From contig NZ_CP012200.1 of assembly GCF_001484685.1 (NCBI RefSeq), forward strand, positions 986,321-1,050,320: a stretch of DNA of 64,000 nt. The letters are read 5' to 3'. The notes beneath the pieces are model-generated. The model saw only the letters and a program-made list of their open reading frames with translations, was not told where the DNA came from and ran no database searches. The first letter of the stretch is position 1. Each line of letters opens with the position of its first letter. Positions 26,646-49,128 of this stretch are shown here, one piece after another. This stretch comes from Thermococcus sp. 2319x1. Lineage in GTDB: Archaea > Methanobacteriota_B > Thermococci > Thermococcales > Thermococcaceae. The translations under genes were made by a program, and so were the position numbers.

Positions 26646-26713
26646 AATGACCGATGATGGCAACAGGGTAGCTACCGAATTTGATGTGGAAGCCGTTCCA
26701 GTCTGAGGTTATT
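26646..26713 (+). ncRNA. C/D box guide sRNA candidate
   Basis: AATGACC (26646-26652) pairs with GGTTATT (26707-26713) as a 7-bp terminal stem with one G-U. Inside lie a C box ATGATGG (one mismatch), a D'-like CCGA, a C' box TTGATGT, a guide of 15 nt (GGAAGCCGTTCCAGT) and D box CTGA (26703-26706). Spacing fits archaeal C/D sRNAs. It fills the gap between two genes and overlaps the usp stop by a few bases. Targets not identified. Confidence 0.7.
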
Positions 26714-46824: not shown

Positions 46825-46874
46825 TTTATCGCACCCCAAGAAAATTAGGCAATGGAACCTTTTAACCTTTAACA

Positions 46875-47095
46875 TTTTTCTTTTGAAAGCCTCGCCCTTG
46901 AGCGGTTGAAATCTGTTGAGTGGCCCTTTTGGGTGATAACCCCGAGCTGGCTTTGCCGGTAGGGGTAATGGGCACGAGACCGGGCCCTCGGGCTGAGCCG
47001 AAACCGGCGACGGGAGTAGGTGGTGAGCCCGTAAACCTCTCTGTCAATGGCGAGGGAGTTAACGGCGGGGAAGAGAACAAAACATAAAAAGGCTT
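46875..47095 (+). mobile_element. GC-rich structured block, possible 3' end of an IS605-family (TnpB) element
   Basis: Sharply GC-rich for this genome. A GTG-started frame (from 46917) reads ALLGDNPELALPVGVMGTRP, then GVGGEPVNLSVNGEGVNGG to a stop just after 47080, in the style of TnpB C-terminal tails. The DNA folds well: CCCC-GAG-CTGGC-TTT-GCCGG-TA-GGGG (46940-46965) and ACGGG/CCCGT (47010-47032). An overlapping tail and structured RNA is what the end of a tnpB gene with its omega RNA looks like. The zinc-finger part and the rest of TnpB are missing, so the assignment is tentative. Confidence 0.4.
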
Positions 47096-47097
47096 AT

Positions 47098-48171
47098 GGG
47101 GGTTGAAGCTCTGTGAAAGCTGCAACGCCTCGGCGAGCTATAGGGTCTACCAATATGGAGAGGTCGTAAAGGAGGGAACCGCAAAAATCAAATGGCTTAA
47201 AGGAACTCTCTACATAACAGTCCCTCTGGAGCTCTACGATGAGTTTATCGTTTATCTCTCTCCGAACTTCTCCTGTGAGGTAAAGCCTGTAGAATATAGG
47301 GTGATTGCCGGACTGAACCTCAACAAGCTTAGAGACATCAGCGTTAAGGTTGGGAAAGCGATTGAGTTGCAATGGAATGGCACTGTATCCAAGAACTCTT
47401 CCTCAAAGCTAAGATTCAATGCCTCAGGGAGGCTTTTAGGAATTGATGTAAAGCTCTACAATTACAGGGGAAAGGAGGTTTCGGGGATATTAGAATGGGG
47501 AAATAGTAAAGGATGGCTGGACATGGATACCTGGCGAAGATATACGTGGGGAGGTAACACTAACCTTAAACCTCCCACCCGGAACTGGAGTAAGTGCAAC
47601 CGCTTATCATGCTCGGGAGAGGGAGCAAATTAACGGAGACCTCTTGATTAAAGACAAAGAAAACCACACAGATTTTAATTACCCCTTCGGAGCTATGTTG
47701 TGGGACAGAGGAGGTATCGAGGCATAGTTTGAAGCAAAAGGTGAAGGAGATGTCCTGGTCTTTGACTTCGGCAACGAAAAAATATCCAGAGTATCAATAA
47801 AACGCAACGAAGTCTGTGCTGAGCTCTACACCCTATATTATGGCAAAAAGAAGCATTGCTCTCTGCTCCCAATGAAGAAAATACACAATTTAAAGGTATC
47901 TTTGATTAGAATCCCCGACGGAAGGCGGCTCCTGCGGATTAAGGTTGATAAGGTTGTCTTCAGCGAAATGGTAAATTCCCCCAATTAGATTCTGGTATTT
48001 TGGAGATAATATCTCCCTGATAAGTCTTGATGCATCTTTGCACAGAAACCCGGACTACTATGTAGTGCCACCTGATGAAAGAAAAACGGATATTGCCCTT
48101 GGGATTTCAACATTGGCACTGGTATTTGCCATAGCATTGTGGATACGTGAGAAAAGGAAGCAAGCGTCATG
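47098..48171 (+). pseudogene. Broken beta-rich surface protein with C-terminal anchor
   Basis: Starts mid-protein, directly after the GC-rich block (CESCNASASYRVYQYGEVVK). It shifts frame near 47550, continues as VTLTLNLPPGTGVSATAYHA, meets TAG at 47725-47727, goes on as FEAKGEGDVLVFDFGNEKIS to VVFSEMVNSP, shifts again at the C5 run near 47976, and ends with NPDYYVVPPDERKTDIALG, a membrane helix and a basic tail to the TGA at about 48169. So it once encoded a surface protein of about 360 or more residues. No family recognised. Confidence 0.7.
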
Positions 48172-48207
48172 AGAATACCTTTTAAACTCTCCCGTCGATC
48201 ACAAATC

Positions 48208-49128
48208 ATGCTTGAAGTGATTTTCCTCGGAACCGGAGGTATAATGCCCAGCAAAGAAAGAAACGTGCCCTCCATAGCGTTAAGATACAACGGGGAGATT
48301 ATCCTCTGGGACATTGGAGAGGGAACTCTAAGACAGCTGAACATAGCCAAGCTGAGCCCCATGAAGATTGAGAAGATTTTCATAACCCACTTCCACGGCG
48401 ACCACTACCTTGGTCTGATGAGCCTTGTTCAAACAATGACCCTCTGGAACAGGGAAAAGCCCCTCCACGTTTACGGTCCAAAGTACACCTTCGAGTTCAT
48501 TCAAAACTACCTAAAAAGTGGATTTTTCAGGCCAAGCTTTGATATACATGTCCACGAGCTCGGAGAGGCAAGGTTAAAGTTTGGAGACTATGAAATATGG
48601 AGCTTCAAGGTGGAGCACGGCGTTCCAGCATTAGGCTATGTTTTCAAGGAGAAGGACAAAAGGGGAAGTTTTGATCTTGATAAAATTAAAGAACTCGGCC
48701 TAAAGCCCGGTCCCTGGATGAAAGAGCTTGAAACCAAGGGAAAGATTGAGATTAATGGCAAGTTTATTCACCTCGAAGATGTGACTGGAAGTCCCAAGAG
48801 GGGTGTGAAAGTCGTTTATACCGGCGATACCGAGCCCTGCGAGAGGGTGAAGCTCTTTTCTGAAAAGGCAGATGTTTTAATTCACGAAGCAACTTATCTT
48901 AGTGAAGAGGATAGGGGAGAGAGCTATCACTCAACGGTTCCAGAGGCCTGCGAAGCTGCAAAAAAAGCAAAAGTTAAACTCCTTGTTCTCTTCCACAGAG
49001 CTCCCAGATACACGTATGAAGAGTATAAGCAGGGGGCGGAAAAACTCTGCGGGCATAGATTTATAATACCCAAAGACTTCGATGTGCTTAGAATTGGTGA
49101 AGGCTATGAGCTATCTTCGCTACGTTAA
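48208..49128 (+). CDS. rnz: Ribonuclease Z (tRNA 3' endonuclease)
   Basis: 306 residues from ATG 48208; a TATA box (CTTTTAAAC, about 48180) lies 28 bases before it, indicating a leaderless message, and the longer open frame is unlikely. FLGTGGIMPSKERNVPSIAL, FITHFHGDHYLGL, VYTGDTEPC and HEATY are the RNase Z signature in the metallo-beta-lactamase fold. It removes 3' trailers from tRNA precursors. The gene overlaps the next by 23 bases. Confidence 0.94.
   Translation: MLEVIFLGTGGIMPSKERNVPSIALRYNGEIILWDIGEGTLRQLNIAKLSPMKIEKIFITHFHGDHYLGLMSLVQTMTLWNREKPLHVYGPKYTFEFIQNYLKSGFFRPSFDIHVHELGEARLKFGDYEIWSFKVEHGVPALGYVFKEKDKRGSFDLDKIKELGLKPGPWMKELETKGKIEINGKFIHLEDVTGSPKRGVKVVYTGDTEPCERVKLFSEKADVLIHEATYLSEEDRGESYHSTVPEACEAAKKAKVKLLVLFHRAPRYTYEEYKQGAEKLCGHRFIIPKDFDVLRIGEGYELSSLR

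Follow-up and report, generated by a model that had tools for sequence, protein, structure and literature searches.

The window analysed here is a stretch of 64,000 nucleotides from Thermococcus sp. 2319x1 (G000:C1:986321-1050320 of a single-contig genome of 1.96 Mb), and near position 47,000 it holds a G+C-rich block followed by a gene fragment. The original prediction, which drew on the letters alone, saw in the block a possible stranded 3' tail of an IS605 tnpB gene with omegaRNA-like folding. Its composition does stand apart, with a G+C content of 0.62 at 46900-46999 and 0.64 at 46950-47049 (100-base windows) against 0.38-0.52 in windows from 45000 up to the block and 0.38-0.53 over 47000-48999. 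The strong stems claimed for it fared unevenly: R1, the family model described below, opens its conserved stems with CCCC/GGGG (46940-46943 with 46962-46965), whereas ACGGG (47010-47014) and CCCGT (47028-47032) are absent from the family's consensus pairs, in which CGGGC pairs instead with GCCCG and encloses a small CCG/CGG hairpin. By itself the folding energy is ordinary (z -1.77, equalled by 8 of 200 shuffles on the + strand and 139 of 200 on the - strand), and a significance claimed from it alone was dropped on this test of both strands. Rfam finds nothing in the block at its curated thresholds and nothing sensible at permissive ones; the L21 leader, matched only permissively (15 bits, E 4.9), was rejected as chance. 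Elsewhere in the window, the C/D-box sRNA sR22 at 26650-26708 exceeds its Rfam threshold with 76.9 bits.

The block is a copy of a dispersed element of ~400 bp found in the Thermococcaceae. Two of its parts, 46864-46902 and 46935-47063, recur in relatives as DNA matches, and matches to the block occur in 33 of 61 genomes (33/37 in the same family, 0/24 outside it). By blastn, the core block matched 46 of the loci fetched; two were the window locus itself and were dropped, and in 32 of the remaining 44 rows, representing 31 distinct places, both ends were found by pattern, the other 12 rows being set aside. At 28 of these 31 places the 22 nt preceding the left-end (LE) motif contain TTAC, and intact copies end in GGAGGTCAG or near it. 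The 23 full-length copies that were aligned (alignment A1; 381-420 nt as cut) are 58-99% identical in pairs, with a median of 70%, and share one order from 5' to 3': the LE with its CGCCCTTTAGGGCGGGG palindrome, a BRE/TATA-like box (GAAACCYTTTTAAA, found by pattern in 18/23 and ending 16-18 nt before hairpin H1), a domain of hairpins H1, H3, H4 and H5, a 3' domain starting AUAACCCC, the right-end (RE) palindrome, and GGTCAG. The parts that can be recognised in the window are collected in Table 1.

Table 1. The window copy and its surroundings (window positions; G007 is a related genome compared below)
Feature	Positions	Strand	Basis and remarks
Left flank with degenerate TTAC target at its end	46861-46873	+	Orthologous-site alignment; CCTTTAAC at 46866-46873, CCTTAC in G007
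LE remnant ATTTTTCTTTTGAAAGCCTCGCCCTT	46874-46899	+	DNA matches in many relatives, consensus LE in A1; second arm of LE palindrome lost
3' part of hairpin H5 and linker of the tnpB-less 5' domain	46894-46933	+	Profile alignment
omegaRNA-like 3' domain, tnpB-less scaffold variant	46934-47080	+	R1 match (122.3 bits, E 8.6e-38); final five bases are flank
RE remnant	47054-47075	+	About 22 nt deleted, including most of the RE palindrome; GGTCAG terminus gone
Downstream gene fragment, outside the element	47113-47633	+	Alignment to G007 and G003; open frame

Two models were built, R1 for the 3' domain and R2 for the 5' domain; the window copy was left out of both, and the copies behind them had been found by similarity to the window block. 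R1, which covers tnpB-linked and tnpB-less copies alike, matches in 36 of 41 genomes of the family and R2 in 26 of 41; across the phylum R2 is present in 52/115 genomes, every one of them within the family, with as many as 20 copies in a genome (G069), 14 in G003 and 12 in G009. All 14 of the R2 matches in G003 lie directly upstream of an R1 match. A pattern search of named records gave 18 loci, 16 of them in MAGs titled Thermococcus, Thermococcaceae or Thermococci, the remaining two in a Fibrobacter MAG and a Prevotellaceae MAG.

Hairpin H3 takes several dissimilar sequences yet stays paired: 130 of 132 cells in 22 of 23 rows, where shuffles average 101.5 and reach at most 121, and 52 of 54 cells when only the nine distinct arm pairs are counted, a result matched by 1 of 2000 shuffles, with the proviso that the arms were picked as hairpins and that this selection favours pairing. 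Pairing in H5 (19/23 rows) is not clearly above shuffles (39/2000 for all pairs, 399/2000 for distinct ones). RNAalifold draws 60 pairs on A1, 20 of them with at least one double change, and its covariation term is small (-5.3 of -65.7 kcal/mol); its pairing of the LE with H1 was not accepted because the LE should fall outside the transcript. As seen by eye, MAFFT sets the variable loops in H3 and H5 one or two columns out of register, and the hairpins were therefore re-read by an anchored search, which favours paired arms and from which one copy that lacks H4 (L036) was excluded.

The coding potential of the block had been the other strand of the original prediction, and here too only part of the claim stood. 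A Gly/Pro-rich frame of 55 codons is indeed open at 46920-47087; at its start it differs from the frame of TnpB, which meets a stop after eight codons counted from ATA at 46936. In the 23 aligned copies the TnpB frame (I-T-P) of the 3' domain is not conserved, with a stop within 40 codons in 14 and a later one in another, and the lengths of the domain are spread over all three phases (10, 5 and 8 copies). The same frame runs open to the end in eight of the 23, as one would expect if the block were the coding tail of TnpB or of some other protein, but the stops in the majority and the mixture of phases led us to reject such a tail, which we regard as almost inconceivable.

What is left of the element in the window amounts to 202 bp (46874-47075). 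Its R1 match is the best in its own genome, and the best R2 match in the window reaches 14.7 bits (E 0.29). The LE ends at GCCCTT (46894-46899) and is fused there to the GCCCTT of hairpin H5, a joint at a common word from which it follows that an internal deletion of ~180 nt removed the promoter, absent from this copy, and H1-H4; the copy terminates in GAAGAG where intact copies have GGTCAG. The transposase had been thought lost from this spot, whereas the copy retains some of H5, the linker and a scaffold of the tnpB-less variant, which place it in the class that carries a hairpin domain at the position of tnpB. The source genome as a whole offers little with which such a copy could work, as it yields neither an R2 match nor a TnpA (PF01797) match, and its second strong R1 match (114.6 bits, 1451771-1451945) belongs to a C-terminal tnpB fragment with no PF01385 match, the next-best R1 match scoring 23.9 bits. 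The A1 profile finds further fragments of the family at G000:C1:1372641-1372783, 706845-706889, 436666-436705, 1849153-1849191 and 1857683-1857719, each made up of the LE with some of the 5' region, of the LE alone, or of the RE alone. Because the promoter and most of the 5' domain are lost, the RE is damaged, the genome has no R2 match and no TnpA match, and the cognate tnpB is fragmentary, we take the window copy as dead, a decayed, internally deleted relic that can probably do none of the transcription, mobilisation or guiding that we propose below for intact copies. The trans-acting guide that had been suggested for the block, in effect a functional small RNA at this locus of the source genome, could point to the strength of its R1 match, but with the promoter, the terminus and the RE palindrome gone and no intact partner found in the genome we consider it very improbable.

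The orthologous site in relatives bears on the history of the copy and of the gene beyond it. G003 holds a copy of 402 bp there, while G007 (in which the right flank is identical), G002 and G006 have none, and the right junction of the window copy is common to G003 and to the empty-site sequence of G007. The downstream gene had been described as truncated exactly at the block; compared with G007, ~208 bp are missing, starting at 47112/47113 and thus 37 bp beyond where the element stops, and this loss, which judging from G007 and G003 took the start codon and a signal-peptide-like region and left a frame ending at 47633, is on these alignments a separate event from the element. The fragment resembles a pseudogene. 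At the shared site (window 46861-46874, L069 in G003, L060 in G007) the right junction is the same (before AACAAAACAT) and the left flank differs: relative to G007, 80 bp in G003 and, on a count made by eye, ~120 bp in the window are missing between an upstream TTAC and the element, and both gaps end at a TTAC-like word. They could be adjacent deletions made by TnpA or the outcome of recombination between two copies.

The kinship of the 3' domain can be read from tnpB elements. In 13 TnpB loci (L111-L120, L127-L129), chosen for an LE-like match or a TnpB match of the ~440-codon frame class, the A1 profile finds the 3' domain and RE on 13/13 and the LE on 12/13, so that intact TnpB copies elsewhere do share the scaffold, as the original prediction had proposed to check. 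The LE matches span profile positions 1 or 2 to 61-94, and L118, the exception, was cut before the LE. Measured from the first ATG, the TnpB is 424-439 aa long in ten of the 13; for L118, L119 and L129 the start rule gave 227. Many of the 13 proteins end ...KTITPSL..GRGN..TLPEG..NETPQT.., their final codons overlapping the scaffold, and the RE ends 19-75 nt past the tnpB stop in 12, the pattern preceding the stop in L128. When the element profile was run at E 1e-3, 31 of 34 other TnpB loci (L011-L013 and L080-L110, L012 and L100 being the same gene) have no match and three, L080-L082, have short end matches only, and on this ground other TnpB subfamilies were ruled out as the source of the element. 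An alignment of 13 3' ends (A4) gives both classes a AUAACCCC/GGGGU stem, an AGACC hairpin, CAAAC and the RE, and places the window copy with the tnpB-less ones. The homology to an IS605 tnpB 3' end foreseen for the block is thus upheld by R1, by the A1 profile and by A4: by sequence likeness, the 3' domain is homologous to the 3' end and right end of an IS605-type TnpB subfamily of ~430 aa, the region in which omegaRNAs arise.

The two classes part company in two respects. R2 finds none of 14 tnpB loci at E up to 1, and the 5' domain is therefore specific to the tnpB-less class in this sample; and in its middle the scaffold of tnpB-less copies departs from that of tnpB-linked ones, so that one TnpB might not be able to use both. 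In four tnpB-linked loci (L111, L113, L114 and L117) a TATA-like box was seen by eye to end ~25-31 nt before the tnpB ATG. The layout suggests that tnpB elements may make an mRNA with no leader, and that its promoter sits where the one for the RNA would sit in tnpB-less copies. A tnpA gene lies just upstream in some elements, with PF01797 matches beside tnpB or R1 matches in G002, G012, G021 and G062; the L119 element spans 1884 bp between its LE motif and RE.

That intact copies have moved is plain from empty sites. Joined flanks of nine G003 copies were searched against G007, G002 and G010. In G007 four of the nine sites are uninterrupted, at 94-98% identity over 180-190 bp; the flanks of L069 lie 80 bp apart there, L062 is represented by its left flank alone, and the sites of L063, L065 and L066 gave nothing in that genome. 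G002 and G010 each have three of the nine sites uninterrupted, at 76-91% identity. In eight filled/empty pairs that were aligned (four with G007, three with G002, one with G010) the element is joined immediately behind the position of TTAC, which is kept in six, and the first 16 bases of the right flank agree at 13-16 positions; insertion has been 3' of TTAC, without target duplication. As the right flank matches the empty allele, a guide derived from the flank would address that allele, which is a matter of geometry and not proof of cleavage. Movement may lie in the past, as only 11 of 41 genomes gave a TnpA match and the single one in G003 has an internal stop. At L064 (G003:C1:1694600-1696000) sub-threshold matches to the C/D-box RNA sR39 were seen at both borders of an intact element copy (L064:332-382 and 758-789); the empty site in G007 reads by eye as one C/D RNA, and insertion may have interrupted a gene for an sRNA.

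Judged by its ends, which tnpB and tnpA-tnpB elements share, and by its target, the family appears to be a non-autonomous element of IS200/IS605 type, as in PATEs. The simplest alternative to any role for its RNA is a plain PATE or MITE, nothing more than ends recognised by TnpA with some residual tnpB 3' sequence between them, whose RNA is functionless and whose conservation comes from spread alone. Such elements exist: PATEs of Haloquadratum have IS605 ends and no transposase, according to the available part of their description (PMC3119063). The ends of the present element are hairpins, as TnpA requires, and some copies, like that in the window, have decayed. One would nevertheless hardly look for a new conserved domain in a mere deletion derivative, and copies of such diversity mostly keep the promoter-like box at a fixed spacing together with the 5' domain and its paired hairpins, which makes this alternative rather unlikely in our view.

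We think it fairly probable instead that the family is a PATE-like, non-autonomous IS200/IS605-type element carrying an omegaRNA used in trans, of which the block is a dead, deleted copy. Directly supported are the family itself, its ends and target, its past movement, the lack of a conserved coding frame, the promoter-like box, the class-specific 5' domain and the homology of the 3' domain; from these we infer how intact copies would be transcribed, mobilised and retained. TnpA, supplied in trans, would recognise the shared hairpin ends and mobilise intact copies of ~400 bp, inserting them 3' of TTAC with no duplication. A structured 5' RNA domain stands in place of tnpB, about where transcription should start, and from its own BRE/TATA each copy would make a single RNA composed of the 5' hairpins, the omegaRNA-type scaffold and then some 16-20 nt of right flank as guide, 16-20 nt being the guide length of other TnpBs. 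TnpB, likewise supplied in trans, would bind the element RNA, cleave and so promote retention. One could also imagine a decoy, in which the RNA binds TnpB as a competitor or parasite, shielding tnpB-less copies or silencing TnpB without guiding cleavage; a scaffold like the tnpB-linked one and yet different in the middle would suit it, and the additional 5' domain could block cleavage. Intact copies nevertheless show good conservation of the border of RE and GGTCAG, which would set the guide, and the putative guides agree with the flanks of empty sites, so that we judge a decoy improbable.

Guide RNAs used in trans might also account for an old RNA family. The prediction had set any likeness to a known structural RNA against a TnpB origin, and such a likeness is found in part: HgcC (RF00062) and sot0042 (RF02656) match the 3' domain of relatives, tnpB-linked and tnpB-less, below the curated thresholds of Rfam, and neither has a match on the window copy. 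On a set of six loci HgcC appears on four at 27.1-37.7 bits (L029, L078, L021 and the tnpB fragment L014; none on L062 or L026). On a second set of 20, at E up to 0.01, it appears on 9 of 14 tnpB-linked loci at 31.4-44.8 bits and on four of six tnpB-less ones at 28.5-32.7 bits (none on L064 or L067). The best scores, 44.8 for the tnpB-linked L119 and 37.7 for the tnpB-less L029, do not reach the HgcC gathering cut-off of 50 bits; sot0042 scores up to 40.7 bits on the 20 loci. Sot RNAs are transcripts that overlap TnpB. By these likenesses the element family would connect the HgcC of Rfam to TnpB guide RNAs.

Genome G036, which we take to be T. kodakarensis KOD1, has four strong R1 matches, three of them tnpB-linked (at 250966, 424922 and 743247) and one tnpB-less (at 1474313), the last a copy that has lost its 5' end and lies within the 5' part of an apparent protein gene. 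In the part of PMC4247193 available, HgcC1-3 of T. kodakarensis show sense transcription from start sites within transposase genes, HgcC4-5 have no link to transposases, and the setting of HgcC4, inside the 5' part of a protein gene, agrees with the copy at 1474313. Taken in order, the four matches would correspond to TK0298, TK0495, TK0850 and TK1679 (HgcC4); no strong R1 match in G036 could be assigned to HgcC5. In P. furiosus, by the same portion of that paper (PMC4247193), HgcC is transcribed antisense to a transposase gene, and this does not fit an omegaRNA. Together with the diverged middle of the scaffold, the weak covariation outside H3, the sub-threshold Rfam scores and the scarcity of TnpA, it makes up our main doubts.

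A wider reading is quite possible, and we put it forward tentatively: that the protein-free mobile elements of Thermococcaceae are promoter-driven omegaRNA genes, each programming a borrowed TnpB against its own empty site, a form of RNA-guided retention without an encoded nuclease; that archaeal HgcC RNAs are largely TnpB guides, some of them standalone copies; and that the 5' hairpin domain is a new omegaRNA module for action in trans. Our literature search found no paper covering both HgcC and TnpB, and, among the papers listed, no report, by title or start of abstract, of tnpB-less omegaRNA elements in Thermococcales; as most subscription papers fell outside the search, this is weak evidence of novelty. 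TnpB and PATEs have reportedly been studied in Geobacillus.

Should the RNA prove to work in trans, a transposon could be reduced to its ends and a guide RNA and still persist through RNA-guided cleavage, and the selfish role of TnpB would become directly testable in the genetically tractable Thermococcus. The family also suggests what HgcC may do, an RNA of hyperthermophiles whose function is described as unresolved in the accessible part of PMC5732400. Among known systems, the PATEs of Haloquadratum, as far as the available part of PMC3119063 describes them, are alike in having no transposase, near-terminal palindromes in common with IS605 elements, no target duplication, core deletions mediated by repeats, and many copies; the present family differs from them in its promoter-like box, its conserved hairpin domain and its omegaRNA-type 3' scaffold, no such RNA role for PATEs being found in that part of the paper (PMC3119063). 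With the TnpB omegaRNA and the archaeal sense overlapping transcripts (sot0042, RF02656) the family shares the 3' domain, the right end and the position beside the would-be guide flank, but it is unlinked to tnpB, carries an extra 5' domain of ~150 nt and has diverged in the middle of the scaffold. HgcC (RF00062) resembles tnpB-linked and tnpB-less copies alike, below threshold, through a Rfam model of 130 positions that covers the 3' part only and is without the family's 5' domain. A further parallel lies in the standalone IscB omegaRNAs and HEARO RNAs: as copies of a transposon's guide RNA that lack the nuclease, they are presumed to act in trans, but they belong to IscB rather than TnpB and are bacterial.
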